Source: Candidatus Hydrogenedentota bacterium
GTDB lineage: Bacteria > Hydrogenedentota > Hydrogenedentia > Hydrogenedentales > CAITNO01
Reading direction: 5' to 3'
Assembly: GCA_012523015.1 (NCBI GenBank)
Contig: JAAYJI010000030.1
Location: forward strand, 1 to 39,405
Length of the DNA: 39,405 nucleotides
Numbering within the stretch: position 1 is the stretch's first letter; the number at the start of each line of letters is the position of its first letter. The position numbers were made by a program, and so were the translations under genes. Positions 5,701 to 32,679 of this stretch are shown piece after piece. A model generated the notes under the pieces. The model did not search any database. It worked only from the letters and a program-made list of their open reading frames with translations, and had not been told where the DNA came from.

Positions 5701-6062
5701 CGGATCAAGACAATCTGTTGGACTTTCAGCAGGCATTGACGCCTGTACACGCCTCCTATCCAAAATATGATCATGCCCTTGCCTATGCCTATACGGAGAT
5801 CAACGCTGATCGCCGTGTCGAAGCAGTTTTGCATCTGGGGCTGCAAAATGATACCCGGATCTGGCTAAATCAGACGCTTATCTATGAATACAAGAAGCAA
5901 GCCCAGTCTGATCCTATTGTTCGCCATGCAATGACCATTAGCTTAAAACCCGGCAAAAATACGATCTTGGTCAAGGGTGCGAAACATTACGGAGCCTTCG
6001 CCTTTTCCCTTGATTGTGTTGCTGAGGGAGCCGCCTTGCGTACCATCAAGTGGTGGAAATAA
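2781..6062 (+). CDS. Large GH2-fold glycosidase-like protein, probable loss of catalytic nucleophile
   Basis: This 1093-residue protein has no signal peptide and is probably cytoplasmic. Residues about 10-190 resemble the GH2 sugar-binding jelly roll and about 195-275 the Ig-like domain. The barrel begins with the GH2-like stretch FHLNHRPFLLRALHY. The acid/base region reads HPAVAIWGVRTEAG, where GH2 enzymes usually have W-S-L-G-N-E: Glu378 is kept but the preceding Asn is Thr377. The nucleophile region reads FVSAFGF where GH2 enzymes have SEFG or SEYG, putting Ala469 in place of the nucleophile Glu. Residues about 560-690 look Ig-like, about 700-870 may be amidotransferase-like as in the trimerisation domains of some beta-galactosidases, and about 900-1093 form a second beta domain starting WMVIGEFPNW. 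The stop overlaps the next gene's start. It may be a carbohydrate-binding pseudoenzyme or use an unusual mechanism. Confidence 0.75.
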   Translation: MSSSREKLNLKEPWLVVVDPQDEGIAKGWFESYPDEKAQPKCSPFIGHADKSAAAAPYWYCHRFDLDKSFSEKYLELQIDALRGNVHLWLNGAALSTVAGDGGPLHFSLDNALCKEHNELVMRVAPPEQHDERLLAIQSLYPTIGKGGAAVRWGLMGAVYLLAQPRFCITTLQVQPDLRRRRVVVNVALSEEMEDAEILLKIEGTDYAASGRPGKISIPLNHFDRWSPKQPHLYTLSVTLLLEQQVLDQRQTRFGMFEFGVKDHRFHLNHRPFLLRALHYRPPCPTRFSPADQVSLVRHDMNRAKAAGFNMLHLTDLPLPPCIFDLADELGMLLYVEYSCQVHGPWDGSTEPYTQGLRNLIQSRCQHPAVAIWGVRTEAGTSEALTDEALRNAAETLCTEARLLDPSRLIFGHHGGEVRWGSSYLIRPYHSDIMPYDALCLYQRAPSDILIRDYFANHGIPSRLAFVSAFGFATPTDWPVILEGTDDDADHSESASPDWQHWKSCLEGFKTRGLDRLFGDFFGFCDAARQLQTEAAAIQIDAILSNPKLAGYCYLGMTEGASSSPDDGAEKEETPDTAVKHFAKVQASLRPIINLSKMNLGLREQCDVQIRLCNENGFSGTVWLTLQVIGPTNQTLWKKKRTLKVPRNYHELWSGTVTASSTPGQHRFVARFMAEDMTLLAEHTESFYVFEKCAASDVNIHLLDPENEYGAVLRSFAKTANLLAPVHIIPPLANTIRAYPDNELAQIMAQVKDGAIAIFFRPPEDWNDLAPWFAEGLNATAKEVIGGDTSVYHYAKLHPVFDKLPSRCLMGQPYAAIVPDKSFLEAGDEDIRGAFHAPPITDDTDAQQGEDWWRTNILVHTYGAGRIVMTHLRILEGLGKDPAAGHLFVNLLNHFGRRSVPSNVPLQPEPKAVEWMHGQHHRVVRRWMVIGEFPNWVLNGGLNTVYPPEEGIDFNAAYEGWYQPVRWRSWYTRTDQDNLLDFQQALTPVHASYPKYDHALAYAYTEINADRRVEAVLHLGLQNDTRIWLNQTLIYEYKKQAQSDPIVRHAMTISLKPGKNTILVKGAKHYGAFAFSLDCVAEGAALRTIKWWK

Positions 6063-11188: not shown

Positions 11189-11230
11189 GCCTGACTGTGG
11201 GATCGGCTCCGTGTTGGGAAAGGATTGTCT

Positions 11231-14200
11231 ATGCGTTTTCTAGCCCTTTGTCTAATCGTAAGTGTCATGGTCGCCAATGCTTTTGCTTTTAATGAGCCTA
11301 TAGACGAAGCCGGTTCTCTGCAACTGCGTATTGAAGGCCCCGCCAAGATTGATACAGCAGCCGACCCGTTAGCCTGTACGCTCATTCTAAAAAATTTGGG
11401 AGACAAAAGTATTACCGGATCCCTGCGTGTGGAGGTTATCGACCAATGGACTGCGCACCTTCCGACCGGTAGCTTCACAATCAATCCCCGCGCCGAGGAA
11501 GCTTTCCCCTTCCGGGTTGTACCTGATAAAGGAACATTGAACGCGTGGTATCCTATTCATGCCTATGCCGAATATAAAGAGGACGGAGAAAAGATCGTCG
11601 TTCATCCCGTATTGCTCGTGCGTACCGATGTGCCCCCGCTGCCGTTGGCAGAAACTGCACACCTTTGGGAACCCCTGACCTTAACGGAGAACAGCCGCTT
11701 CTCACTGGCGCAACTACCTCGTCATCGTGCGCGCGTTGACGTCTTCGGCGAAGCGCCGCGATATTTGCCTGTGGGCTGGCGCGGCAGCGATCCCCTTACG
11801 TTAGCTCATCTGATTGTTGAGGGGAAAAAGGCAATGCCTGAACTCCACCCTGCCCTTGGGGTACATCCGCCTTGGAATCAAGGGCGTAAAGGCTCCCTCT
11901 TCATCGAATTCCCATTGCAATTGCCACAGGCGCAACCCATTACCTTCACGGCATTTCTCGCGTTGCAGCCCGTCAACCCCGGTGAGCCTCCCTCCGACGG
12001 CGTCCTATTCCGTGTTTACGCTGCGCCTTTTGATGATTCCGAGGTAGAAACAGGGACCCTGCTCTTTGAGCGCTTCACCGATACCTTAACTTGGGAGCCC
12101 ATTAGAGTTGATTTGTCCGCCTATGCAGGCGAATCCATGAGGCTGCAATTGGAGACCCACCCCGGCCCCAATAAAGACACCACCTGCGACCGTGCCCTGT
12201 GGGGCGCCCCCTCGTTGGTCGTTGGAACACCCAAGGTTTCGGGACCCGATCCCCAATGTACGCCCTTTGTTCTGGGCCGTATCATGACAGATGCCGCCGC
12301 CTGTGAAGTGGAATTACTGCCGGGGTCGCGGGGTCTGCTCGATAGCCGTGTTGTTTTTAACCGAGAAAATACTACCCTTGCCTTTGATGGCTTTTCTGTT
12401 ACGGTCTTAGATACGCCCCTTGAAGAAGAAGGCGGGATCTTTACCCTTGAGAGCGTGGAAGATGACAGCCGTCCGGGCGTCTATCGTCAGATTCACCATT
12501 TCCGCGGCCCCGATAATTTCTTCGATCTCATCGGCGAAGTACGCTTGGAAGAGGGCTCCCATCTTCGCGCATCCTTTTCACTGGAGAACGAAAGCCCGCC
12601 AAAGCCATGGCGAAAGGTGGTGATTGAAGACGCCTGTCTCGGACCTTGGAGCAATGGGCTTCACCGCATTTATGCCGGTTTGGGCAATGTGATTGAAGAG
12701 CCCGAAGCCTTTACCATGCCTTTTGACGGGCATCAACTCGCCACCTCTTTTGTCGGCATGGACTTCATAAATAGCTTCTCTCTCGTACAAGCTGTTACCG
12801 CGCCGCCGTCTAAACTTGAGGTGCTGCCGCAAGCCCATATCTATAGTATGCACAGTCCCATTGCGCCTACCTTTATTGTGATCCCTGCAGAGGATGTCTG
12901 GCAGGGTGTGCGCATCTGGCGCAAGATCAACAATGTGACGGCAGCGCCGGGTGTGCCCCGTCTTGCAGGCAGATTTGTTTTCGATGTTTGGGGCGGCCGC
13001 TATGATCATGCGGCGCAAGCCATAAGCAATGCCGCCCGCTATGGCTTGACCAATAGCGTGCTTGTGTGGCACAACTGGCAGCGCTGGGGGTATGATTATC
13101 GACTGCCCGAGATTTATCCGCCTAATCCGCTTCTGGGAAGCTTGGATGAGTTTATCGCGCTCTCTGCCCTATGCGAAGAAAATGATATTCTCTTCGCGCC
13201 CCACGACAATTACACCGATTATTATCCCGACGCGCCGAGTTTTTCTTACGATAAATTGCTCTTCAACAAAAATGGACAGCCCCTCTGGGCGTGGCTCAAT
13301 GAAGGCCGTCAAGCCCAGGCATTCCGTTGGCGTGCCGGAGCCTACCGACCTTATCTGGAAGAGACCATAGTGAGCCTCCGTGATCATGTGAAGCCCACCG
13401 CCTATTTCATCGACGTGTGGTCAAGCATGGGACCCTTCGACGCCTGGACACGGGAAGGCGGCTTTGAAAGCCGCTGCCAACAACGAGACGATTGGGCGCA
13501 TAGCTTTGAGTGGATACGGGAGACACTGGGAAACAATGCCCCACAAATATCGGAAAGTGGTCATGATCTTTTGATCGGCAGCCTCGACGGCGCCCAAGCA
13601 AACCATTTGCGCGTCGATTATCCGCCCGAAACAATGAGCTGGACCGTGTGGAATATTCGTTGTGCTGATGCGGAGCGTATCCCGTGGAGCGATATGGCGT
13701 ACCACGACCGTTTTATCCTGCACGGCGCCGGCTATGATGGTCGCTACCGCGGCGGACTGTCTTCGGCCTTACACGGCATATACAGCGATGATTACCTATC
13801 GACGGAAGTCATGACCGGGCGCCCCGGCATGGCAAACACCATATTCAGCCGGAACGTAGTTCGGAAATACTGGTTGCTCAATGACCTTATGCGCAGTTTG
13901 GCTTTGAAACAAATGGAAACGCTAACTTTCCATGAGGGAGATATACATCGGCAAGAGCTGGGCTGGGAAGAGGACGGCAAGGTCTGGGTGAACCGCGGCA
14001 AAGATGAATGGGAAACTGAAGCGGCTCTATTGCCGCAATACGGTTTTTTCGCAAAGACGCCGCAAGTGCAATGTGCCATCGAACGCAAAGGAGACACCTT
14101 TGTGGAATGGAGCAAATCTGATGGCGGATGGTACGTCAATGCGCGTAGACCGATACCGGCGCCCTTGCCCATTTCCTTGACAGGCGCTGAGCTGAAGCTG

Positions 14201-14872
14201 CGGGAAGATTGTAATTTTGAGATTCAGCTGCAATGGCTGGCGGAGGGTAAGGCGTCTGAAGACCTACGTGTCTTTGTACATTTTCTAGATGATGACGGCA
14301 ATATTCTATTTCAAGCCGATCATCAATCGGACCTGCCTACCCAAGCGTGGAATGGAACTATACAGACGATCGGACAAGGCACGATACCCGAGGCGTATCA
14401 AAAGGGCGATAGCTTCCGTTTGTTTGCAGGCCTGTGGAAGCCGGGCGTGGCGCGACGCTACTTGAAAAACTCTTATCGTGATGAGGCGGCCGTATACTTG
14501 GGACAGGTCACCCTTGACGGGGAGGATGATAAGGTGAACGCTCTCCTATTAACGCCGCCCGAACCCGAAGAAAATCCCCTTATGGCAAGAATGAATCCCC
14601 TTCGTATTCCCGTTGATTTCGGCGGCGTGATTACCAACGGAGCCTGTCGCATTGCTCCCCATCAGGACAGCTTGGTCGTGACGCTCTTGCCCGAGGAGCC
14701 GGATTTCGAACTCATCTTGGATCTCAAACAACTTCCATTTGCGCCGGCTGCGCCATCTGTCGTACACGCTGAAATGATAGACGGTTCTATAAAAGAAGAA
14801 CACTTTAAACAGGAAGACGAACAATTAATACTTCAGTGTTCGTCAGACGTTTTTGCCTACACCATACGATAA
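11231..14872 (+). CDS. Large secreted glycosidase-like protein with a probable (beta/alpha)8 barrel
   Basis: AAAGGA at 11219-11224 stands 6 bases before the ATG at 11231. The first 19 residues form a Sec signal peptide ending AFA, so the 1213-residue product should be exported. The N-terminal part (to about residue 560) consists of beta-rich segments of the type seen in carbohydrate-binding and Ig-like modules. The central part (about 575-930) looks like a TIM barrel: FVFDVWGGRYD, NSVLVWHNWQRWGYDY, FAPHDNYTDYY, TAYFIDVWSS and ISESGHD. By analogy to GH101-type barrels I suggest Asp728 (in FIDVW) as nucleophile and Glu775 (in SESG) as acid/base; this is inference, not an alignment. The C-terminal part again looks beta-rich. 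The gene ends 24 bases from the convergent comB-like gene. It could be an endo-acting glycosidase on complex glycans. Confidence 0.65.
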   Translation: MRFLALCLIVSVMVANAFAFNEPIDEAGSLQLRIEGPAKIDTAADPLACTLILKNLGDKSITGSLRVEVIDQWTAHLPTGSFTINPRAEEAFPFRVVPDKGTLNAWYPIHAYAEYKEDGEKIVVHPVLLVRTDVPPLPLAETAHLWEPLTLTENSRFSLAQLPRHRARVDVFGEAPRYLPVGWRGSDPLTLAHLIVEGKKAMPELHPALGVHPPWNQGRKGSLFIEFPLQLPQAQPITFTAFLALQPVNPGEPPSDGVLFRVYAAPFDDSEVETGTLLFERFTDTLTWEPIRVDLSAYAGESMRLQLETHPGPNKDTTCDRALWGAPSLVVGTPKVSGPDPQCTPFVLGRIMTDAAACEVELLPGSRGLLDSRVVFNRENTTLAFDGFSVTVLDTPLEEEGGIFTLESVEDDSRPGVYRQIHHFRGPDNFFDLIGEVRLEEGSHLRASFSLENESPPKPWRKVVIEDACLGPWSNGLHRIYAGLGNVIEEPEAFTMPFDGHQLATSFVGMDFINSFSLVQAVTAPPSKLEVLPQAHIYSMHSPIAPTFIVIPAEDVWQGVRIWRKINNVTAAPGVPRLAGRFVFDVWGGRYDHAAQAISNAARYGLTNSVLVWHNWQRWGYDYRLPEIYPPNPLLGSLDEFIALSALCEENDILFAPHDNYTDYYPDAPSFSYDKLLFNKNGQPLWAWLNEGRQAQAFRWRAGAYRPYLEETIVSLRDHVKPTAYFIDVWSSMGPFDAWTREGGFESRCQQRDDWAHSFEWIRETLGNNAPQISESGHDLLIGSLDGAQANHLRVDYPPETMSWTVWNIRCADAERIPWSDMAYHDRFILHGAGYDGRYRGGLSSALHGIYSDDYLSTEVMTGRPGMANTIFSRNVVRKYWLLNDLMRSLALKQMETLTFHEGDIHRQELGWEEDGKVWVNRGKDEWETEAALLPQYGFFAKTPQVQCAIERKGDTFVEWSKSDGGWYVNARRPIPAPLPISLTGAELKLREDCNFEIQLQWLAEGKASEDLRVFVHFLDDDGNILFQADHQSDLPTQAWNGTIQTIGQGTIPEAYQKGDSFRLFAGLWKPGVARRYLKNSYRDEAAVYLGQVTLDGEDDKVNALLLTPPEPEENPLMARMNPLRIPVDFGGVITNGACRIAPHQDSLVVTLLPEEPDFELILDLKQLPFAPAAPSVVHAEMIDGSIKEEHFKQEDEQLILQCSSDVFAYTIR

Positions 14873-17479: not shown

Positions 17480-18697
17480 CTATTGATTGATAATTTGGGG
17501 CAGTTGCAAAATAGGCATAAAGAGGGCGATCACAATACCACCCACCACAATACCCATCACGGCGATCAAAAGCGGTTCGATCAGACTGGTCAGCGCATCC
17601 ACAGTTGCCTTCACTTCGGAATCATAGAAGTCTGCAATCTTAATCAGCATGCCTTCTAAAGCGCCGGTCTTTTCACCAATACCAATCATGCGTGTGACCA
17701 TGGCGGGGAAAGCGCCCGATTGCATCAGGGGGTCTGCCAAAGTATTGCCGTTGCGGATCGCCTCTCCCGCTTCACGGATCGCTTTGGAATAAACCTCATT
17801 GCCCGCCGTTCGTTCCACAATGTCCATGGCTTGCAATATGGCGACACCGCTTTTAATCAAGGTGCTCAACGTACGGGTGGCACGGCTGATCGCAACCTTG
17901 CGCAGCAGATTACCGAAAACGGGCAGACGCAATTTGGCTGAGTCCAAATTGTAGCGTCCTGATGGAGTCTTTCCGTAAATCCTGATAGCAAACACGGCGC
18001 AGACAACGGAAGCGGCAATGATTCCCAAAGAATACCATTGTCGTAAAAAGTTGCTTATTTGAATCAGGAGTGCTGTGGGAGCAGGAAGCTTCGCCCCAAA
18101 GGAATTGAAAATTTCAGCAAATTGGGGAACCACAAAGACGACCAGTCCGGCTGCAATCAGCAAAATCATGGAAAAGGCGACTACGGGATACGTCATGGCA
18201 GAACGGATTCTGCGTTTGAGCTCTTCTGAAGCTTCCAGATAGTCAGCCAATTGAAGCAACACGCCATCCAAATCACCGCTCGCTTCGCCCGCGCGCACCA
18301 TATGCGTGTACAGTTCGGGAAAGGCGCGCGGGTATTTGCGCAGTGTCTCGGAAAAGGTTTCGCCCGCTTCAACGTTTTGCGCCACCGCGTCAATGATAGC
18401 GCAAAAGTTTTTATTCTCTGTTTGTTCGGCAAGAATATCAAGACCTTGCATGAGGGGGAGACCGGAACTGACAATGGTTGATAATTGTCGCGTGAAGACC
18501 ATCAGATCCGCCGCTTTGACACGCCGGTTCAGGGAAGACGTTGTTTTTGAAAAAATCGTCTTCTTTTCAATCAATTTGTCCGCTTCAATACCCATGGCGG
18601 CCAATTGCCGCAAGGCAGTTTCACGGTTATCGGCTACCAATGCGCCATCTTTTTTCGCCCCGGAAGCCATGCGCCCGGAATAAATGAATGTTGCCAT
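17480..18697 (-). CDS. pilC: Type IV pilus inner-membrane platform protein PilC (GspF family)
   Basis: PilC/GspF is the polytopic platform that couples the cytoplasmic motor ATPases to pilin assembly. Two tandem T2SSF domains are visible, at about residues 70-190 (FTRQLSTIVSSGLPLMQGLDIL) and 270-395 (ISRATRTLSTLIKSGVAILQAM), with hydrophobic segments near residues 170-230 and 370-400. The length of 405 residues is normal. AGGAGA lies 8 bases upstream of the ATG on this strand. The gene is oriented away from pilB and pilT, which lie 5-7 kb away, and heads the unit pilC, GHMP kinase, rsmI, comB. Confidence 0.93.
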   Translation of the reverse strand: MATFIYSGRMASGAKKDGALVADNRETALRQLAAMGIEADKLIEKKTIFSKTTSSLNRRVKAADLMVFTRQLSTIVSSGLPLMQGLDILAEQTENKNFCAIIDAVAQNVEAGETFSETLRKYPRAFPELYTHMVRAGEASGDLDGVLLQLADYLEASEELKRRIRSAMTYPVVAFSMILLIAAGLVVFVVPQFAEIFNSFGAKLPAPTALLIQISNFLRQWYSLGIIAASVVCAVFAIRIYGKTPSGRYNLDSAKLRLPVFGNLLRKVAISRATRTLSTLIKSGVAILQAMDIVERTAGNEVYSKAIREAGEAIRNGNTLADPLMQSGAFPAMVTRMIGIGEKTGALEGMLIKIADFYDSEVKATVDALTSLIEPLLIAVMGIVVGGIVIALFMPILQLPQIINQ

Positions 18698-20968: not shown

Positions 20969-23434
20969 ATGCTTGGTTTCGGTTCAAAAAGTACACGTAC
21001 GCAATCACGCAATCGGCTGGGTGAGTTTCTGGTGGAAAAAGGGAGATTGCGCCCTGACCAAATAAAACAGGCTTTGGCACAACAAAATCGCAAGGGCGGG
21101 TTGCTGGGCGAGATCCTCGTTGACTCGGGTATTCTCGAACAAAATGTTCTCCTAGCCTTTCTTATGCGCCTCCATAGACCGAACACGATCAGCCTGTCCG
21201 ATTACAATATTGATTCCCAAGCCTTAGCGCAAATACCACAGGATGTCTGCGAAAGATTTGGCATCCTTCCCGTTGATAAGCTCGGGCGTATCCTCACCCT
21301 CGCCATGGTGGACCCGCTCGACACAGAGGCACTCAAACAAGCCCAATCCTATTGCCCCGATGTGCGCCTTAAACCCGTGCTCTGCGAGTGGCAGGATTTT
21401 CAAGATGTCTTTCAGCGCGTTTACGAGGTTGTATTGAAAAAACCCAAAGATTTAGATAAGCGCTACGACTATTTAAATATTGATGAATTGACCCGAACCG
21501 CTGCAGGCGAAGAGATCGACACAAAGTCAACAGCGAAAACAAAAAAATCAACATCGACGCCGGAGGACGGAGCAGCCCGATCAGATGCCGCCGATGACGA
21601 CGCCGCGTTGAGAAAAACTGATATTCCTGTGGCTGCGTCAGAAGAACAACCTGAGACGGCGCCTCCGCGCGCTATTTACGGTATGCCTCTTTCTAGTGAT
21701 GCTTTTTCATCTGGTATTCGTGAACTGGCAGAAGCCGTACAACAAAGCATTGATCATGCTGTGAATCTTGTGACCGCAGCACGGGCCGAACAGCATGGTG
21801 AGGGAAACGCAGCTTCTGAACAACTCGCCGCTGTAATGGAACAGACACTGCAAAGTAGCGTACACGCCTTTACCGAGGCACTGGAGCAAGAACATCAAAG
21901 CTTGGCCGAGCCTCTGAAGCGATTGCTCGAGATGATGGGCGAACAAACGGGGCAATTGGGCGCCGCCTTAAAAGCCGTGGAAAGCGCCTCTGAACAGACT
22001 GCCGGCAGTGCTGAACTTATCGCGTCACTCCGCCTTACCCTCTCCGAGTCCGCCCAAGAATCGGCTGCAGCGCTGAGGGATACATTGCGCCAATTACTGG
22101 ATGAAAAAGAACGGTCCGCCGACAAAGAAGAGGTCGATCCGCAGCAATTAGCAGAACTGCTTCGCGAAAACATTGGCACTGTATTGGGACAAGGTCTCGA
22201 AAACCTGTCTCAAATGATGCAAGAACAATCCGGTATGTATCGCCAACAGCTAGATGCCTTGCCGCCGCCTATTGACATTGAAGCCATGGCGCAGCGTCTG
22301 CATGAAGCCATAAACAATAGTCTTGACAGTCGAACGCAATCTTTGGTGGAAAGTCTTCAATCGTCCATTACAAACATAAATCACGGGCAGCAACAGGAAT
22401 TAGGCAAACTGGCTGATGCCATCCTCCGCTCTCTAGAACAAGAACGGGCGGCGCAGCAAGAAAAACAAGAACAGCTTACCCACTTGGTAGAAGCAGCGCT
22501 TGAGTCGGTCCATCAGAGCGCCCGGTTAATTGAAAGCTATGTTGCCGAGTCAAAGAACCGTGATGAAAAAAAAGGGACTTCCCAACGAAATTACGCTTCT
22601 GTAAGTGCATTTAATCCAAGCTTAAATCCTCAATCAGAAGAATTTAAAGAAGCCGATGCACGCTTACGTACCGTATTCGATAGTGACAATCCTTTACGCA
22701 TGTTGACCTTCCAAAACTTCTTCTTTGGAAGGCCCAACACTTTTTCCGTGAAATTGGCGCAAGCCGTGGCAACCGCGCCGGGAGGAGGATATAATCCTTT
22801 CTTCTTATATGGAGGGATAGGTGTGGGGAAAACCCATTTAGTCAGCGCTATTGCTAACGAAATTCTCGCCCGCGCCGCCAAAAATAAAAATCAGACCATC
22901 AGCCGCGTCGGGTATTTATCGGCGAGCCGTTTCGTAGAAAAATTCAATCGCGCCCTCCGAGATGATTCTGTGTCAGTATTCCGGGATCACTATTGTCAGT
23001 GGGATGTTCTTATTTTAGATGACATCCAATTTCTAGACGGACATAGTGACGCCCAAGAGGAATTCTATCATATTTTTAATGGATTAATACTCGCGGGTAG
23101 ACAAGCTATTGTTGTGGGCGATCAGCCCCCACACAAACTTGCCATGCTCGAACAACGCTTGGTGTCTCGCCTCACCGGCGGTATTGTGGCGGAACTAAAA
23201 ACACCCAATTTGGAAACACGGCTGGCCATACTCAATCAAGTGCTGCAGTACGCAAAAATGAAATTACCGGAAGATATTGTCTCCTTTGTTGCTTTGCACG
23301 CCGGCAACGACATGCGGCGGATGATTGGCGCTCTTCGCAAAGTGATGGCTTATGCACACTTACAAAACAAGGCCGTTACCATAGAAGAAGCCCAAGAGAT
23401 TCTCAATCATTTTGATATGCGTGAGACTATCTAA
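20969..23434 (+). CDS. MshEN-type domain, coiled coil and DnaA-type AAA+ ATPase fusion protein
   Basis: This 821-residue protein has three parts. Residues 1-155 match the N-terminal (MshEN/T2SSE_N) domain of pilus and secretion ATPases; the first motif (residues 16-39) begins RLGEFLVEKG and ends in Gln, fitting the published c-di-GMP-binding pattern, while the second (45-68) lacks the leading Arg and final Gln. Residues about 160-230 are charged and low in complexity, and about 230-545 are Gln/Glu/Ala-rich and look like long coiled coil. Residues about 565-821 are a DnaA-like AAA+ domain: Walker A GGIGVGKTHL (Lys621), Walker B VLILDDIQFL (Asp684, Asp685), arginine-finger region RLVSRLTGGIVAEL and sensor II MRRMIGALRKVMAYA. 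The DnaA DNA-binding domain IV is absent, so it is Hda-like rather than an initiator. AGGA lies 7 bases before the ATG. pilB follows 84 bases later, suggesting a pilus role. Confidence 0.85.
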   Translation: MLGFGSKSTRTQSRNRLGEFLVEKGRLRPDQIKQALAQQNRKGGLLGEILVDSGILEQNVLLAFLMRLHRPNTISLSDYNIDSQALAQIPQDVCERFGILPVDKLGRILTLAMVDPLDTEALKQAQSYCPDVRLKPVLCEWQDFQDVFQRVYEVVLKKPKDLDKRYDYLNIDELTRTAAGEEIDTKSTAKTKKSTSTPEDGAARSDAADDDAALRKTDIPVAASEEQPETAPPRAIYGMPLSSDAFSSGIRELAEAVQQSIDHAVNLVTAARAEQHGEGNAASEQLAAVMEQTLQSSVHAFTEALEQEHQSLAEPLKRLLEMMGEQTGQLGAALKAVESASEQTAGSAELIASLRLTLSESAQESAAALRDTLRQLLDEKERSADKEEVDPQQLAELLRENIGTVLGQGLENLSQMMQEQSGMYRQQLDALPPPIDIEAMAQRLHEAINNSLDSRTQSLVESLQSSITNINHGQQQELGKLADAILRSLEQERAAQQEKQEQLTHLVEAALESVHQSARLIESYVAESKNRDEKKGTSQRNYASVSAFNPSLNPQSEEFKEADARLRTVFDSDNPLRMLTFQNFFFGRPNTFSVKLAQAVATAPGGGYNPFFLYGGIGVGKTHLVSAIANEILARAAKNKNQTISRVGYLSASRFVEKFNRALRDDSVSVFRDHYCQWDVLILDDIQFLDGHSDAQEEFYHIFNGLILAGRQAIVVGDQPPHKLAMLEQRLVSRLTGGIVAELKTPNLETRLAILNQVLQYAKMKLPEDIVSFVALHAGNDMRRMIGALRKVMAYAHLQNKAVTIEEAQEILNHFDMRETI

Positions 23435-23518: not shown

Positions 23519-25249
23519 ATGGCCATAAAAATGCATAAAAAACGCCTTCCTGACATGCTGCTGGAAGAGGGGTTGATCACCAAAGCCCAACTGGAAGAAT
23601 GTATGGAAGTGCATCGTACCAGTGGGCAAAGCCTTCCGCTTCTCCTCGTCAACATGGGCTATCTTAATGAAGAGGATATGGTTATCGCCTATTCTGACAA
23701 CCTCGGCATTCCGCATATCCGTGTGGCAAATTGCAATATCTCTAAAGAGGTACTGTCGCAAGTACCGGAGACTTTGGCGCGTCAGTATTTAATGTTGCCT
23801 GTATCCATTACCGGAAACACGCTGACGCTGGCAATGGCGGACCCCCTCAACATCATGGCTATAGACGATGTCCGCATGGTGACACGCTATGAAATTGAGC
23901 CTGTTGTGGGCATTATCTCCGAGCTGCGCGAAGCCATCGATCTCCTTTACGGCGGCGGCAAAACAGCGGATCTGCTCAAGACAATTATGAGCAGTACCGA
24001 TACGGCGACATCCGATTTGATGGAAGCTGAAAGCGATGACGACGAAGTAGAAAATCTCTCTGTCTTGGAAACAGGCGCCGGCGAGGAACCTGTTAAACGT
24101 CTTGTACGGGTTATTTTATTTACAGCCTTGGAGCGCGGCGCCAGCGATATTCATATTGAACCTTTCGAAAAGATCGTTCGTATTCGCTACCGTATTGATG
24201 GTGTTTTGGAAGAGGCCATGTCGCCGCCCAAGACGCTGCATCCCAATGTGGTCGCGCGGCTGAAAATATTATCACGTTGCCGTATTGATGAACATCGACT
24301 CCCTCAAGACGGGCGCAGTCGCATGCGCTATGACAATCGTGACATCGATTTCCGTGTCGCTTTTTTGCCCACCAAATACGGAGAAAAAGTCGTGCTCCGT
24401 GTGTTGGACCAAGGTTCACTGACCCTTGATCTTGAAAAACTCGGCTTTGAGCCGCAGCCTATGGATGCTTTTACAGAAGCGCTCGCCATGCCCCATGGTA
24501 TGATTCTCATGACGGGCCCCACGGGAAGCGGTAAAACAACGACCCTCTACAGCGCACTCCTTAAGCTGAACAAAACAACGACCAATGTGGTGACCGTCGA
24601 AGATCCCATCGAATATGAGATGTTTGGCGTGAACCAAGTTCAGGTGCAGCAGCGAATAGGCTTTACTTTTGCGGAGGCATTGCGGCAGATACTCCGGCAA
24701 GACCCTGATGTGGTCATGGTCGGTGAGATCCGTGATGGTGAGACAGCTGACGTGGCGGTGAAAGCCGCCCTCACCGGGCATCTGGTGCTCAGCACCCTAC
24801 ATACCAATGATGCGGCCGGCGTCTTTCCCCGATTGATCGATATGGGCGTAGAACCCTTCCTTGTCCAATCCTCTGTTGCCCTCGCCGCCGCTCAGCGTTT
24901 GATGAAACGGGTATGCACCGAGTGTTCTCATTCTGTTGTCATCCCGCCCGATGTCTTAAAACGGGCGCAATATCAGCCTTTCAGTTATATTGAAAACGAA
25001 AATTTTGTACACGGTCAGGGCTGTTCAAAATGTAAGGATACGGGTTATAAAGGGCGTGTGGCGGTTGTTGAAGTAATGTTGAACTGGCCGGAACTGCAGG
25101 AGCTGGTGTTACGCCGTGCTTCGGGCCATGAAATCAAAAAAGCAGCTATGCAATGCGGTATGAAGACGCTGCGCAGAAACGCCCTCGCCAAAGCTGTAAA
25201 AGGGATTAGCACCATCGAACAGGTCTTGGATCATACCATTGCAGATTAA
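23519..25249 (+). CDS. pilB: Type IV pilus assembly ATPase PilB (GspE family)
   Basis: PilB is the hexameric ATPase that drives pilus extension. It has an N-terminal MshEN-type domain (residues 1-145), a linker, and the motor core: the N2-type region with LERGASDIHIEP, Walker A GPTGSGKT (residues 333-340), Asp box VEDPIEYE, Walker B VGEIRDGETAD and His box TGHLVLSTLHTNDA. The tetracysteine zinc site is seen as CTEC and CSKC. The first N-terminal RLG motif is degenerate (RLPDMLLEEG at residues 9-18, ending in His not Gln at 32). GGAG at 23508-23511 is 7 bases before the ATG. The length of 576 residues is normal. It lies between the DnaA-like fusion gene and pilT. Confidence 0.95.
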   Translation: MAIKMHKKRLPDMLLEEGLITKAQLEECMEVHRTSGQSLPLLLVNMGYLNEEDMVIAYSDNLGIPHIRVANCNISKEVLSQVPETLARQYLMLPVSITGNTLTLAMADPLNIMAIDDVRMVTRYEIEPVVGIISELREAIDLLYGGGKTADLLKTIMSSTDTATSDLMEAESDDDEVENLSVLETGAGEEPVKRLVRVILFTALERGASDIHIEPFEKIVRIRYRIDGVLEEAMSPPKTLHPNVVARLKILSRCRIDEHRLPQDGRSRMRYDNRDIDFRVAFLPTKYGEKVVLRVLDQGSLTLDLEKLGFEPQPMDAFTEALAMPHGMILMTGPTGSGKTTTLYSALLKLNKTTTNVVTVEDPIEYEMFGVNQVQVQQRIGFTFAEALRQILRQDPDVVMVGEIRDGETADVAVKAALTGHLVLSTLHTNDAAGVFPRLIDMGVEPFLVQSSVALAAAQRLMKRVCTECSHSVVIPPDVLKRAQYQPFSYIENENFVHGQGCSKCKDTGYKGRVAVVEVMLNWPELQELVLRRASGHEIKKAAMQCGMKTLRRNALAKAVKGISTIEQVLDHTIAD

Positions 25250-25475: not shown

Positions 25476-26555
25476 ATGCACATTCTCAATATTAAAGATC
25501 TGTTGTCAAAGGCGATTGAAGAAGGCGCCAGTGACTTGCACATTTGTGCAGGAGTGCCGCCCATGATACGCGTGAATGGAAATGTGGATCCCATTCCAGG
25601 CTACAAGCGATTAACCGGCGAAGACACCCAAGAATTGATATACAGTGTCATGAACGAGGAACAGATCGCCAGTTTTGAAACGGACAAAGAATGTGACTTG
25701 TCTTTTGGAATTGAGGGGCTGAGCCGTTTTCGATTGAATGTATACCGTGATCGCGGCTCTGTGGTCGGCGCTTTCCGTGCTATTCCGTTGAGTATCATGT
25801 CATTTGAGGAGTTGGGATTGCCCCGTGTAATTGCTGAATTTGCAAACAGACCCACCGGATTGGTGCTCATATGCGGACCCACGGGATGTGGTAAATCAAC
25901 CACTCTCGCCACCATTATTAACAAGATAAATAATGAACGAAAATGTCATATTATCACCATTGAAGACCCTATCGAATATCTTCATCATCACCGGCAGGCA
26001 ATCATCAACCAGCGCGAAGTGTATTCCGATACAAACTCCTTTAACAACGCTCTGAAATACGTCTTGCGTCAGGATCCCGACGTCATTTTGATTGGGGAGA
26101 TGCGCGACACGGAAACCATCCAAGCAGCGTTGACCGTCGCAGAAACAGGACACCTTGCCTTTGCAACGCTCCATACCAATGATGCGCTGCAGTCTGTGAA
26201 CCGAATTGTGGACGTCTTCCCAACAGCGCAACAAGACCAAGTACGCACGCAGCTATCCTTTGTCTTGGAAGGAGTTGCCGTGCAGCAACTCATCCCCCGT
26301 ATAGACGGCAGAGGGCGTGTGCTCGCCATGGAAATCATGATTCCCAATCCTGCCATCCGTTCGCTTATACGTACACAAAAACTCGAGCAAATACCGAGTA
26401 TGATCGAGATTGGGAAAGGCGAGGGGATGATGACCATGAACCAATCCCTGTACCGCTTGTTGCGGCGCGGTGTGATCAGCACAGATATGGCTTTTAAGCG
26501 CAGCATGAATCCGGAAGGACTTCCGAGCTTGATCAACAAAGCAAACATGGAATAA
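25476..26555 (+). CDS. pilT: Type IV pilus retraction ATPase PilT
   Basis: PilT is the hexameric motor that depolymerises pili for retraction and twitching. It begins with the short PilT N-terminal PAS-like domain (GASDLHICAGVPPMIRVNG), then Walker A GPTGCGKS (residues 134-141; most PilT proteins have GPTGSGKS), Asp box IEDPIEY, Walker B IGEMRDTETI and His box TGHLAFATLHTND. The C-terminal AIRSLIRTQKLEQIPSMIE motif is the PilT hallmark important for retraction. The length of 359 residues is normal. AAGGAAGG stands a few bases before the ATG. Confidence 0.95.
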   Translation: MHILNIKDLLSKAIEEGASDLHICAGVPPMIRVNGNVDPIPGYKRLTGEDTQELIYSVMNEEQIASFETDKECDLSFGIEGLSRFRLNVYRDRGSVVGAFRAIPLSIMSFEELGLPRVIAEFANRPTGLVLICGPTGCGKSTTLATIINKINNERKCHIITIEDPIEYLHHHRQAIINQREVYSDTNSFNNALKYVLRQDPDVILIGEMRDTETIQAALTVAETGHLAFATLHTNDALQSVNRIVDVFPTAQQDQVRTQLSFVLEGVAVQQLIPRIDGRGRVLAMEIMIPNPAIRSLIRTQKLEQIPSMIEIGKGEGMMTMNQSLYRLLRRGVISTDMAFKRSMNPEGLPSLINKANME

Positions 26556-26600: not shown

Positions 26601-28265
26601 ATGGACAAAGATGAAGACATTGGAATCGGACGTTCCGATCCCTCAATGACACATAGCCTGCCTGAAGACAATTCATTTCCTGTCCTTTGGTTCAGACGTC
26701 TCCTGATGTCCTTGCAGCCCGTTTACGACGGGCCTACCCTATGGCTGTGGTTCTTTGGCTTGGGGCGGATCGCCGTGCTGCTCGTCGTCCTCGCCGGAGC
26801 CGCCAAAGCCAGCACTTTTGAAGCGGGGCTCATTGCGCTCTACCTAGTCTTTTGTGCCGCCCTCGCCTGCAGTCTTTGGCATTTGGTCATACTTTATAGA
26901 GAACGGATCGTCAATGGCACGTTGACTTGGGCGCAGGTAGTTCTGGACTTTTGCATCATTAGCTTTGCGATCAGTCTATTGAGCGGCCAGTCCGATTACT
27001 ACACCTTGTTATTGGTCATTGTGATTCTGGAATCAGGTATTTTGCTCGGTCTGATTCATGCCTTCGCCTTCGCAGTTGTCTCCATAATCTTCCTGTCTTT
27101 GTCCGGGCTGCATCAACAATACGAAGTCATCGGTTGGGTGCCGTATTGGTACAACCTGCTCATTCAATGGATTGTCATGATTTGCGCCGCTTTCTTGAGC
27201 GGCTACTGGAATCAGCGGCTCGGACTCATGAAACGGTTTCAGCGTGAGATACTGGACAATATGCTCAGCGGTTTTTTCGTTTGTGACCTGCAAGAAAAGG
27301 TGGTCCTCATCAATCAGTCGGGATGTGCCATTTTGGGGCTGAAAGAAACGGAGGTATTGGGCCGTTCCGTGGCGGATATATTGGTTTGTGATTTAGGAAC
27401 AGAATGCCCCGTAGTCACAGCGCTGCATAGCGGACACAATTATATAGGCTATGAATTTCTATGCTGCCTTGCCGATGGTTCCACCAAGATGTTAGGCTTA
27501 ACCACCAACCCCGTCTATGATTGGCTAGGGCGGCTCACATCGTTGATCGTTGTCTTTCAAGACCTCACCGAAACGGTGGCATTGCGGGAAGCAGTCAGAC
27601 AACATGACCGTATGGTAGCGGCAGGCGCTTCTGCCGCAGAATTCGCCCATGAAATCCGCAATCCCTTGGCAGCCTTGCGCAGTGCCGTCGATGAAATGCA
27701 GCGTAGTCTTGACGCGCCTGCCTTGACGCAACGGCTTTGCAGCATAGCGCTGCGCGAATCCGAGCATCTGAGTAACATTGTCAATCGTTTCCTGGAATTT
27801 GTCCGCCTTCCCGATACGCCTCAAGTGGAGGTTGATATCAATGCATTACTGGATAAAACGATTACTTCATTCAAGCAGCGCTTTTCGAATTTGGAAATTG
27901 CAACGGATTTAGACCCCAAAAATCCGCATGTTCTTGGTGATGAAACACAATTTAGACAATTATGTGATAATATTCTTCATAACGCTGTGGAAAGTATCCA
28001 AGAAAACGGTACCATCACGGTAACCTCCCGAATCTTGGCTAACCATGTTGTGCTTCGCTTTGACGACACAGGATCCGGCATAGCGCCCGACAAAGCTATG
28101 AAAATTTTCGAACCCTTCTACTCTGAAAAAGAAAAGGGCTTAGGAATGGGGTTGGCGGTGTGCATGCGCATTGTTACCGCCTATAATGGTGATATTCGCG
28201 CCGCTGCCGCGCCCGGCGGAGGATTGTCTATTATTGTACGGCTGCCTTGTCGCGCCGACGCATAA
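26601..28265 (+). CDS. PilS-like membrane sensor histidine kinase
   Basis: The kinase has about six N-terminal hydrophobic segments (residues 45-205), a PAS domain (about 210-325) and a cytoplasmic kinase core. The dimerisation helix holds the phosphorylated His350 in FAHEIRNPLAALRSAV, and the ATP-binding domain shows the N box (DNILHNAVESI), G1 (DDTGSGI) and G2 (GLGMGLAVC). This six-helix-PAS-kinase layout is that of PilS, which with PilR controls pilin genes. The gene lies 45 bases after pilT and 21 bases before the regulator, supporting the PilS assignment. The signal sensed is unknown; in Pseudomonas PilS senses pilin in the membrane. Confidence 0.88.
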   Translation: MDKDEDIGIGRSDPSMTHSLPEDNSFPVLWFRRLLMSLQPVYDGPTLWLWFFGLGRIAVLLVVLAGAAKASTFEAGLIALYLVFCAALACSLWHLVILYRERIVNGTLTWAQVVLDFCIISFAISLLSGQSDYYTLLLVIVILESGILLGLIHAFAFAVVSIIFLSLSGLHQQYEVIGWVPYWYNLLIQWIVMICAAFLSGYWNQRLGLMKRFQREILDNMLSGFFVCDLQEKVVLINQSGCAILGLKETEVLGRSVADILVCDLGTECPVVTALHSGHNYIGYEFLCCLADGSTKMLGLTTNPVYDWLGRLTSLIVVFQDLTETVALREAVRQHDRMVAAGASAAEFAHEIRNPLAALRSAVDEMQRSLDAPALTQRLCSIALRESEHLSNIVNRFLEFVRLPDTPQVEVDINALLDKTITSFKQRFSNLEIATDLDPKNPHVLGDETQFRQLCDNILHNAVESIQENGTITVTSRILANHVVLRFDDTGSGIAPDKAMKIFEPFYSEKEKGLGMGLAVCMRIVTAYNGDIRAAAAPGGGLSIIVRLPCRADA

Positions 28266-28286: not shown

Positions 28287-29681
28287 ATGTCTAAACGTGC
28301 ATTTAAAATACTGGTTGTTGATGATGACGAAGGGCTCCGTGAAGTACTGGATATCGTTCTTTCTAATGCGGGCTATAATGTCATTACAGCGGCCTCTGTC
28401 GAAGAGGCACAATCCCCGCTCGAACGCGAACTTATTGATGTCGTAGTCACTGATTTGTATATGGGCCGGGATCGCAAGGCAGGATTACGACTCCTCGAAT
28501 ATCTCAATGAGAACCAACCTGATACGCCCGCGCTTATGATCACAGGACACGGCACCATCGAATCTGCCGTTGAGGCCATGCGCTTAGGGGCACTGGACTA
28601 TTTGCAGAAACCTTTTAAGAGCAATGAAGAGGTGTTACTGCGCGTAGCACGCGCCGTAGAGAAACGGATCCTATTGCGCGAAAATAGGGCGTTCCGACTT
28701 GATCAATCCCGTACAGCCCATGTCAACACCCTTGTAGGCGACAGCCCGAAGTTTAAAAAAATGTTGGACATGGTGCGGCGCGTTGCAGGTCTGCCCAGCA
28801 CTGTTGCCATTAACGGGGAAAGCGGCGTGGGAAAAGAGTTGGTCGCAAGAGCGCTCCATTCCTTGAGCCCCCGCGCAGAAAAACCCTTTGTGGCGATCAA
28901 CTGCGGCGGCATTCCTGAAAACTTATTGGAGAGCGAGCTTTTCGGCTACAAAAAAGGTGCCTTTACCGGCGCACAGCAAGACAAAGAAGGTCTCTTTGTC
29001 GTTGCTGACGGCGGTACCCTTTTCCTCGATGAAATCGGAGAAATGCCCATAGCACTGCAAGTGAAATTGCTGCGTGTCTTAGATGACGGATCTGTTACGC
29101 CTGTCGGAGGCTTGTCGTCGAAAGCGGTAGATGTGCGCGTCCTTTCTGCTACCAATCGTAATCTTGCCGAAATGGTTGAACAAGGTACCTTCCGCAATGA
29201 TCTCTACTACAGGCTGAATGTTATTCCCATTACTGTACCGCCCCTGCGTGAAAGAATATCTGATATTCCTTTGCTCGTCCGTTATCTTATAGCGCGTCAT
29301 ACGAAGAACCTGATCTGCAAGGAAAAATCCTTGTCGCCTGAGGCGCTAGACGCGTTGACCCGCTATGCCTGGCCCGGCAACATCCGGGAAATGAGTAATG
29401 TTCTCGAACGGGCTTTGGGATTGAGTGATCATGATGATATCCGTTTGGAAGATTTGCCCGCCCATATTCGCGACCTTCCCGATTCCCATCCGCCCAAAAA
29501 ACCGATTCTCTTGGATGACTATATAGATTTGGAATCAGAAGTGGCGCAATTTGAGCGCGAATATATACAACACGCATTGGAACAATGTCATTATTCACTT
29601 TCTAAAACGGCGCAGCGATTGGGCTTGACACCCAGAACGCTCCGATACCGATTAGAAAAATATAACCTAACCACTGAATAA
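28287..29681 (+). CDS. PilR-like sigma-54-dependent response regulator (NtrC family)
   Basis: The protein has three domains: a receiver with acidic pocket DDDE and phosphorylated Asp56 (in VVVTDLYMG), a sigma-54-activating AAA+ domain with Walker A GESGVGKE (177-184) and the sigma-54 contact loop GAFTGA (224-229), and a C-terminal Fis-type helix-turn-helix (SKTAQRLGLTPRTLRYRLEKY region). It would activate -24/-12 promoters when phosphorylated by the adjacent kinase. By context it is PilR, which drives pilin transcription, but no pilin gene and no clear -24/-12 promoter are visible in the window. Confidence 0.92.
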   Translation: MSKRAFKILVVDDDEGLREVLDIVLSNAGYNVITAASVEEAQSPLERELIDVVVTDLYMGRDRKAGLRLLEYLNENQPDTPALMITGHGTIESAVEAMRLGALDYLQKPFKSNEEVLLRVARAVEKRILLRENRAFRLDQSRTAHVNTLVGDSPKFKKMLDMVRRVAGLPSTVAINGESGVGKELVARALHSLSPRAEKPFVAINCGGIPENLLESELFGYKKGAFTGAQQDKEGLFVVADGGTLFLDEIGEMPIALQVKLLRVLDDGSVTPVGGLSSKAVDVRVLSATNRNLAEMVEQGTFRNDLYYRLNVIPITVPPLRERISDIPLLVRYLIARHTKNLICKEKSLSPEALDALTRYAWPGNIREMSNVLERALGLSDHDDIRLEDLPAHIRDLPDSHPPKKPILLDDYIDLESEVAQFEREYIQHALEQCHYSLSKTAQRLGLTPRTLRYRLEKYNLTTE

Positions 29682-30422: not shown

Positions 30423-30825
30423 TACGACACACTGCTTTCACACGGTACCTAGTAAGAGATTGGCATCGCTTGCCTGCAACCGAGCCTATGAATGTGCTTT
30501 TCACGACCGGCTTGTAACAGACGCTAAGGCGGGCTGCACAAGTACCGGTCGTTTCTATACAGCACGGACGCCCCTTTTATCAGGATAAGGGGATAGCTGT
30601 GCTCTTGCTAAAAAGTCGCGCCCTTCTTGTTACGACGCCATAAAAATATGATATCATTCCCCATGAAGTTGCCCTACGGAGAGGGCTTCGTGCAGCGTCT
30701 TATAGTATTCATTATCCCTTAGGGATGTCCTGAATCCATGTTTGTTTAATGGCGTTAATTGACATAGCGTGCTTGGCCTATACGTCGGTGTCGTTATCGC
30801 CCAACCCCTCACGGAGAGAGATCCT
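30423..30825. other. Intergenic region before the ceramidase-like gene
   Basis: No gene is evident in these 403 bases. It contains a bulged inverted repeat (30505-30550), a second inverted repeat with CCCC and GGGG ends (30571-30592), and AT-rich sequence with a weak promoter-like pair TTGTTA (30627-30632) and TGATAT (30649-30654), 16 bases apart. Confidence 0.45.
30505..30550 (+). repeat. Bulged inverted repeat downstream of the lipoprotein gene
   Basis: GACCGGCTTGT (30505-30515) pairs with ACAAGTACCGGTC (30538-30550) through 11 base pairs with a two-base bulge; the loop is 22 bases. No T-run follows, so factor-independent termination is doubtful, but it may stabilise the upstream transcript's 3' end. 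Confidence 0.4.
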
Positions 30826-32679
30826 ATGCGTTCCATTGCCTCTTTTTTTCGTCGCCACAAGATTCTTACGACTTTCTTGATTTTGATTATTCTGCTGGCA
30901 TTGTGGGTTTTTAGTCTGCGGCGCAGTCCCCACCATTCCTACGAACTGGATTTCATGATTCCGGTGGGCGGTGTACCTACACAAGAACCGGGAGCCATAG
31001 AAGTTGGTGTTGCCAAGAGAGAGATTACCATTGACTTCGACACCCACGATACGTGGATTGACGGCAACGAAAACAGCGAATATGATATTTGGACCGATGC
31101 ACTGAAACCGTGGCAAAAAGTTCTTTTCGCCACATTAAACAAAAAGCTTAAACTCTATGATGCAGAAAAAGCCGCGCAATCGGGCGACTCCTATGTGGAC
31201 AAAAACGGAAACGGCAGATTTGATCCAGTATGGCTGGCAGGCTTCAACGTGAACCGCCCTGCTAAAGGTGTACACGATCCCCAATGGACGCGTGCCATGG
31301 CATTACGGAATAACGGTGTTACGGTGGTCATGGTGACCATTGATGCCATCGGGATCTTTCACAACGATTTTATAACCATTCGCAAAGCGATCAATCCCGC
31401 GCTCAATATTGATCACATCATCTTTTCTTCCACCCACTCCCATGAAGTTCCGGATACCATGGCCATTTGGAGCGGCCCTGTTCCCGTGCTGAACTATGAC
31501 GATTCCTACATGAAATCAATCCAAAGCAAGACCATTGAAGCCATTGACGAAGCCGTCGCCGCCTTGCGGCCCGCAGATATGTATTGTGCCACGACGACCT
31601 TGCTGCCCCGAGAAGATTTCGTACATGATTCACGCAAACCGCAAGTACTAGATGATTCCCTCTATCTGTGGCGTTTTACGCGACCCGGTTCAGACGCCAC
31701 CATTGCGACCCTCGTCAACTGGGGCAACCATCCCGAAGCTCTAGGCGGGAGCAATGGCTATCTCACTTCTGACTTCCCCCATTGGCTTCGCCTCGGTCTG
31801 GAAGAAGGTGTGCCCGAACCTAATGGCGTTGAAGGCTTCGGCGGTATGTGTCTTTTCTTCCAAGGTAAACTGGGTGGACTTGCCAATCCCCTGCATGTGA
31901 ATGTACCCAAACGAGACGGTTCCGGCGTAATCGATAAAAACAGCTTCGAGAAGGCCGAACACCTAGGCTATAACGTCGCCATTGAAGCGGCGAATGCATT
32001 GCGTGGCCCTGACGCATGGTTGAATGAAAATCCCGTGCTTGCCGTGACAGCAAAGCCCATCTACGCGCCTATGGAGGGTGCCTTCAAATGGGGAATCATG
32101 TTCGGACTGATTCACCAAGGCTATTATTGGGGTGGATATTCCAAGACGGAAGTCAATGCCTTGCGCGTGGGCAATGTCATGGTCACCACCGTTCCCGGCG
32201 AGCTTTATCCTGAAATCGCCATGGGCGGCATCGAAGCGAAACCGGGCAGAGACTTCGAAATCAGTCCTGTCGAAGTACCGCCGCTGCAAAATGAAAAGTT
32301 AAAATTTGCACGACAAGCCTTCACCTTAGGGCTTGCCAATGATGAGATCGGCTATATCATTCCCAAAACCCAGTGGGACACAGAGAAGCCCTATGTTTAC
32401 GAGAAGAGCCAGTACGGCGAACAGAATTCCGGCGGTTCTGATGTGGGGCCTGTGATTCATGCGGGAATGATGGAGATGATCCAACGGGTAAACGCTTCCT
32501 TTGACGCGTATCCCTCCCCGGAGCCGCAGGAACAGCCTCAAGAAGCGCTTCAGCCGGCAACGGATGCTGAGGAAGCTGAAAGTACAGCCCTAAGCGCTGA
32601 GGTGCCGGTTCCGGACGCTGTATCAGAAGAAATACCGGAAGCCGCTCCTGAAGTCGAAGAGCCCTCGGCCGACGAATAA
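30826..32679 (+). CDS. Membrane-anchored neutral/alkaline ceramidase-like protein
   Basis: The protein resembles the N-terminal catalytic part of neutral ceramidases, zinc amidases that release fatty acid from ceramide. Likely metal-ligand regions are THSHEVPDT (residues 203-211; ceramidases usually have THTHSGPG) and NWGNHPE. The N-terminus has a basic stretch then a hydrophobic helix (residues 12-30), so it is probably anchored and faces the periplasm. Two short Asp/Asn-rich loops at residues 79-87 and 125-133 look like EF-hand or dockerin-type calcium loops. The last 55 residues are Pro/Glu/Ala-rich. GGAGAGAG lies 5 bases before the ATG at 30826; the frame is open from 30769 but that extension has no ribosome binding site. 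The length of 617 residues, without a clear C-terminal Ig domain, is near the bacterial enzyme. True substrate is unproven. Confidence 0.75.
   Translation: MRSIASFFRRHKILTTFLILIILLALWVFSLRRSPHHSYELDFMIPVGGVPTQEPGAIEVGVAKREITIDFDTHDTWIDGNENSEYDIWTDALKPWQKVLFATLNKKLKLYDAEKAAQSGDSYVDKNGNGRFDPVWLAGFNVNRPAKGVHDPQWTRAMALRNNGVTVVMVTIDAIGIFHNDFITIRKAINPALNIDHIIFSSTHSHEVPDTMAIWSGPVPVLNYDDSYMKSIQSKTIEAIDEAVAALRPADMYCATTTLLPREDFVHDSRKPQVLDDSLYLWRFTRPGSDATIATLVNWGNHPEALGGSNGYLTSDFPHWLRLGLEEGVPEPNGVEGFGGMCLFFQGKLGGLANPLHVNVPKRDGSGVIDKNSFEKAEHLGYNVAIEAANALRGPDAWLNENPVLAVTAKPIYAPMEGAFKWGIMFGLIHQGYYWGGYSKTEVNALRVGNVMVTTVPGELYPEIAMGGIEAKPGRDFEISPVEVPPLQNEKLKFARQAFTLGLANDEIGYIIPKTQWDTEKPYVYEKSQYGEQNSGGSDVGPVIHAGMMEMIQRVNASFDAYPSPEPQEQPQEALQPATDAEEAESTALSAEVPVPDAVSEEIPEAAPEVEEPSADE

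Follow-up and report, generated by a model that had tools for sequence, protein, structure and literature searches.

We analyzed a 39,405-nucleotide stretch of DNA from a Candidatus Hydrogenedentota bacterium (contig JAAYJI010000030.1 of assembly GCA_012523015.1, hereafter the window), in which a single open frame at 20969-23434 of the + strand precedes the genes of a type IV pilus motor. This frame, the first gene of the pilB operon, starts with ATG, is preceded by an AGGA-type ribosome-binding sequence just upstream, and encodes a protein of 821 aa. The gene pilB (23519-25249, +) starts 84 bp after its stop codon and is followed on the same strand by pilT (25476-26555), by a sensor histidine kinase that is PilS-like by position (26601-28265), and by an NtrC-family response regulator that is PilR-like by position (28287-29681). 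A pilC/gspF-type platform protein is encoded on the opposite strand at 17480-18697. The window also carries three long open frames of 1093, 1215 and 636 aa at 2781-6062, 11225-14872 and 30769-32679, the last two of which had no NCBIfam match at 1e-10.

Profile searches showed that the 821-aa protein joins an MshEN domain to a DnaA-type AAA+ module. Pfam placed MshEN (PF05157) at residues 74-153 with an E value of 5e-15 and Bac_DnaA at residues 579-741 with an E value of 1e-47, while the NCBIfam model of the c-di-GMP motif, NF053729, matched residues 16-65 with 52.1 bits for a cut-off of 38. The MshEN_N part (residues 16-68; 21014-21172, +) contains two 24-residue motifs, RLGEFLVEKGRLRPDQIKQALAQQ and LLGEILVDSGILEQNVLLAFLMRL, separated by the 5-residue spacer NRKGG, and is followed by the MshEN_C subdomain (residues 74-153; 21188-21427, +), which gave a Foldseek match to 5htl. 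The AAA+ module of the DnaA domain III type (residues 579-815; 22703-23413, +) carries a Walker A motif GGIGVGKTHL, a Walker B motif LILDDIQF, the box VII motif RLVSR (R730/R734), and the sensor II R783. The protein ends about 6 residues after the AAA+ lid, and no domain IV match was found. The solved relatives by sequence were DnaA domain III and the N-terminal domains of MshE, PilB and PilF. AlphaFold2 modeled the MshEN (mostly 80-93 pLDDT) and AAA+ (mostly above 90) domains well, with a helical linker of low confidence (pTM 0.40), and the best Foldseek hits were DnaA domain III (38% identity, TM-score to target 0.88-0.89) and MshE bound to c-di-GMP. The T2SSE motor domain PF00437 is absent from the fusion but present in the neighboring PilB, and no GGDEF or EAL domain was found among the Pfam hits. 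The domain fusion described in the first-pass annotation was therefore confirmed, with one correction that concerns the linker.

The first-pass annotation had described about 300 residues of coiled coil, which is only partly right. The linker (about residues 154-575; annotated at 21428-22630, +, residues 154-554) is Pro/acid-rich and then amphipathic, and is alpha-helical by prediction. Its hydrophobic period is 3.6 over about 290 residues (p<0.001 against shuffles), whereas the 3.5 periodicity of heptads was at shuffle level (p 0.59). Across the family most members peak between 3.56 and 3.8, with a mean peak near 3.69. The length of the linker is not conserved, the proteins ranging from 601 to 1204 aa, and a motif preceding the AAA+ domain (R-H-A-S-V-A-P-F-G) was conserved in part of the family only. 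Folding of the shortest member (601 aa) gave good domains but a pTM of 0.50, so that no fixed mutual arrangement was obtained. These data suit a long amphipathic tether or a non-heptad bundle rather than a classical coiled coil.

We then examined whether the fusion could result from an assembly error joining two genes. Among 68 genomes of this uncultured phylum (44 genera, all of one order; searches at the level of the phylum and of the class returned the same 68), 54 contain the AAA+ half of this family at E<=1e-100, clearly above true DnaA, which scores 1e-73 to 1e-88. Some of these frames are cut by contig ends (for example in genomes numbered G005, G010, G055 and G058). This recurrence rules out an assembly chimera. 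Of the 54 genomes, 53 have a strong pilB match, and the exception (G044) has the fusion 684 bases from a contig end; conversely, 8 genomes lacking a strong pilB match also lack the full fusion. In all 35 loci examined, pilB follows on the same strand at a distance of 15-214 bp (median 53), and in most of them pilT, the histidine kinase and the NtrC-type regulator follow as in the window, whereas the genes upstream differ. In one genome (G051) pilB is broken by a single in-frame TAG (locus L092:5662-7386) while the rest of the operon looks intact. No consistent sigma-54 promoter signal was found in about 30 upstream regions.

A maximum-likelihood tree of 57 AAA+ domains placed all 35 fusions in one fully supported clade, separate from the DnaA of the phylum, and the genomes also have a normal DnaA. 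A third Bac_DnaA-type protein (E about 1e-16), with the AAA+ domain at the N-terminus followed by a coiled-coil-like tail, occurs in most genomes of the phylum tested; in the genome of the window (G000) it has 384 aa (contig C269, L048:2900-4051). Outside the phylum the search covered Bacillota and Auribacterota only: none of 300 Bacillota gave a match at E 1e-96, and no single-frame fusion was found in 44 Auribacterota. A scan of genome contigs with the single protein returned two true DnaA proteins with domain IV (Oscillospiraceae, Auribacterota), which are not relatives of the fusion. Auribacterota also carry proteins of 627-668 aa with a DnaA-type AAA+ domain at the N-terminus, no domain IV, a long linker and a C-terminal hydrophobic segment, which are not next to pilus genes (L106:8732-10621, L107:4350-6230, L108:1776-3779). 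In the unrooted tree these fall on the fusion's side of a supported branch (99/94) away from the true DnaA proteins, although long branches make this uncertain. Several Auribacterota genomes (G088-G092) appear to carry two DnaA genes of unequal score.

The residues expected for ATPase function are retained in the AAA+ module, while positions that contact DNA in DnaA are lost. The Walker A Lys, both Walker B Asp, the arginine finger (R734, equivalent to R285 of E. coli DnaA) and the sensor II Arg (R783, equivalent to R334) are invariant in 35/35 members. The two positions that bind single-stranded DNA in E. coli DnaA are V211 and R245 (PMC5835720, PMC12122000). The V211 equivalent is Ile in 11/11 DnaA of the phylum but mostly Ala, Thr, Ser or Gly in the fusion, and the R245 equivalent is Glu or Asp in 32/35, the E. 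coli numbers being assigned from the known E. coli sequence. The residue following the latter is Ala in 35/35 where DnaA has Thr, and a Trp (678) is present in 34/35 where DnaA mostly has Val. The protein scored 263.9 bits with the DnaA equivalog model TIGR00362, below its cut-off of 343.9. So the module looks like a working ATP-dependent AAA+ that no longer handles DNA, ATPase activity being inferred from sequence.

The best clue to function, missed by the first-pass annotation, came from comparing the MshEN domain of the fusion with that of the PilB encoded next door. In MshEN, the glycine at position 3 of each 24-residue motif gives the backbone hydrogen bonds to the guanines of c-di-GMP, and XpsE, with G11V and G40L among its changes, does not bind (PMC5013675). 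In the fusion this glycine is kept in 28/29 members in motif I and in 28/29 in motif II, and both are present in the window protein. In the neighboring PilB it is kept in only 5/28 and 0/28, being replaced by Pro, Glu, Gln or Ala (RLP and SLP in the window). The PilB of the window nevertheless still scores 40 bits with NF053729 (cut-off 38), so that residual binding is not excluded. The Gln at position 24 of motif I is present in the window protein and in 25/29 members, while at position 24 of motif II the window protein has Leu (Gln in 22/29). Motif II starts with a hydrophobic residue in 29/29; for Thermus PilF GSPII-B such a residue was proposed to predict very tight binding, and the consensus was widened to (R/K/L)LG (PMC11731258). 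GGDEF proteins occur in 17/17 genomes tested, with three of them in the genome of the window, but a GGDEF gene is a neighbor of the fusion in only 1 of 35 loci (G020, L038:11964-12947, 419 bp upstream on the same strand). PilZ-domain proteins also occur in these genomes, and the fusion is thus not the only possible c-di-GMP receptor. Other MshEN proteins were seen as well: paralogues of about 440-470 aa in several genomes of the phylum share the LRIKPILC signature of the fusion's MshEN_C, and their C-terminal part, read by eye in four of the five, looks like a Crp-type cyclic-nucleotide-binding domain (L039:9693-11051, L040:2067-3473, L041:9298-10644, L042:9754-11124, L049:3124-4449), while in the window's own genome the C-terminal part of another (contig C72, L046:970-2634) looks by eye like an HDOD domain.

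The same split was found independently in Auribacterota. Several of the 44 genomes have an MshEN-containing frame without AAA+ directly before pilB, often with pilC, the histidine kinase and NtrC after it. In the 14 loci read, this frame keeps the motif-II glycine in all readable cases and the motif-I glycine in all that are not cut, while PilB has it in 1/14 (motif I) and 0/14 (motif II). In three of these loci (L138, L144, L145) the frame is longer than a single domain, partly because frames were read stop to stop. The phylum of the window therefore seems to have added the AAA+ domain to an existing MshEN partner gene. Natural variants also exist within the phylum. Two genomes of one genus in the window's family (G008 and G013) keep pilB-pilT-HK-NtrC, with a 75-77% identical PilB that has not regained the glycines, but have another gene (oxidoreductase-like, by eye) in place of the fusion. 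One genome (G027) keeps MshEN and the linker but has lost the AAA+ part. The protein is therefore accessory to the operon, and neither part is strictly needed.

We propose, with moderate confidence, that the protein is a c-di-GMP-receptor partner of the type IV pilus extension motor, which would take the sensing role played elsewhere by the N-terminal domain of PilB itself and add an ATP-dependent assembly module derived from DnaA. In this view, c-di-GMP would bind MshEN_N and alter docking of the protein, through MshEN_C (a homologue of the PilB N1 domain), at PilB or at the PilM/PilC motor base. The AAA+ domains of several copies, tethered by the long amphipathic helices, would assemble head to tail when ATP-bound, using the arginine finger, and so cluster, recruit or gate a c-di-GMP-blind PilB. 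All the support is comparative sequence evidence: the analysis establishes the domain make-up, the operon position, the retention of the c-di-GMP glycines in the fusion and their loss in PilB, and the retention of the ATPase residues with loss of the DNA-binding positions, whereas c-di-GMP binding, ATPase activity, ATP-driven assembly, the partner and the direction of the effect on pili are inferred. The interpretation of the first-pass annotation was supported in part. The domain order, the absence of domain IV, the link with the pilus motor and a c-di-GMP input domain with an intact core motif held, and an Hda-like tie to replication was not supported; its two other suggestions, a polar localiser and a c-di-GMP-gated remodeler of PilB/PilT, are considered below.

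Of the alternatives, the least unlikely is that the protein is a polar or motor-site localiser, the AAA+ domain forming ATP-dependent filaments or clusters that position the pilus machine and MshEN serving as the cargo hook. This overlaps with our proposal but puts position before gating. The long helical tethers of variable length, the arginine finger kept in 35/35, the ATP-dependent oligomers formed by DnaA domain III, and the accessory nature of the protein agree with it; however, no localisation domain, transmembrane segment or landmark partner was found, and the canonical c-di-GMP glycines would be unexplained if the domain were only a hook. Somewhat less likely is an ATP-hydrolysing remodeler that swaps or disassembles PilB and PilT at the pilus base, in the manner of a DnaC-like loader. 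The AAA+ active site is complete including sensor II, the fold relatives include clamp and helicase loaders, and the operon contains both motors, but DnaA-type AAA+ proteins act by ATP-dependent assembly more than by processive remodelling, no substrate-recognition domain is present beyond MshEN, and G027 does without the AAA+ part. It is doubtful that only the MshEN part matters and that the AAA+ domain is an add-on of minor effect: the Auribacterota frames and G027 argue for this, but the catalytic residues are invariant in 35 diverse members and the AAA+ domain carries most of the invariant columns of the alignment, which points to strong selection. An Hda-like regulator coupling pilus or c-di-GMP state to DnaA through mixed AAA+ oligomers is the weakest reading because, although the domain is DnaA-type with an arginine finger and the genomes have a separate DnaA, the protein scores 100 bits with the Hda model TIGR03420 (cut-off 194.8), the regular expression Q[LIM][SDPGT]L[FPL] found no clamp-binding-like motif in 35 members, the gene tracks pilB and not dnaA, the ssDNA-binding residues are lost, and its clade is deeply separate from the DnaA of the phylum.

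A broader reading, which remains tentative, is a split-sensor organisation of the motor in two phyla: PilB would have given up c-di-GMP binding, a dedicated MshEN partner encoded just before pilB would have taken it over, and in one phylum this partner would have recruited a DnaA-derived AAA+ domain that now assembles on ATP to control the motor. This would be a second way in which c-di-GMP reaches the type IV pilus motor, through a partner gene rather than through PilB itself, and a case of the replication initiator's ATPase working outside DNA metabolism, in a surface machine. The pattern lends itself to cheap and direct tests, and full fusion, MshEN only, AAA+ lost and gene lost form a natural series of variants. 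Literature searches for MshEN combined with DnaA, and for a DnaA-type AAA+ with PilB and PilT, returned nothing relevant among open-licence papers, and the fusion is thus apparently undescribed.

The MshEN receptor domain of MshE, PilB and PilF (PMC5013675, PMC11731258) shares with the fusion the two 24-residue motifs with their 5-residue spacer, the guanine-contact glycines and the MshEN_N plus MshEN_C fold, but is joined there to a T2SSE motor; the other fusions named in the main text of Wang 2016 are to REC, HD-GYP, CheA, CheX, cyclase and Ser/Thr kinase, not DnaA. The AAA+ module is 38% identical to B. subtilis DnaA domain III and shares with it Walker A/B, sensor I, the arginine finger and sensor II, but domains I, II and IV are absent, the V211 and R245 equivalents are lost, and the conserved Trp678 stands where DnaA mostly has Val. 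Hda is likewise a DnaA-like AAA+ without domain IV, from which the fusion differs by its MshEN domain and linker, its score below the Hda cut-off, the absence of a detected clamp-binding motif and its place in a pilus operon. The MshEN-containing frame of Auribacterota occupies the same operon slot and shows the same glycine pattern against PilB, without an AAA+ domain. FimX, which acts on PilB in the PilZ–FimX complex (PMC11656802), provides a precedent for a separate c-di-GMP receptor partner of PilB, but the analogy is one of function only, since FimX is a GGDEF-EAL protein unrelated in sequence to the MshEN–AAA+ fusion.
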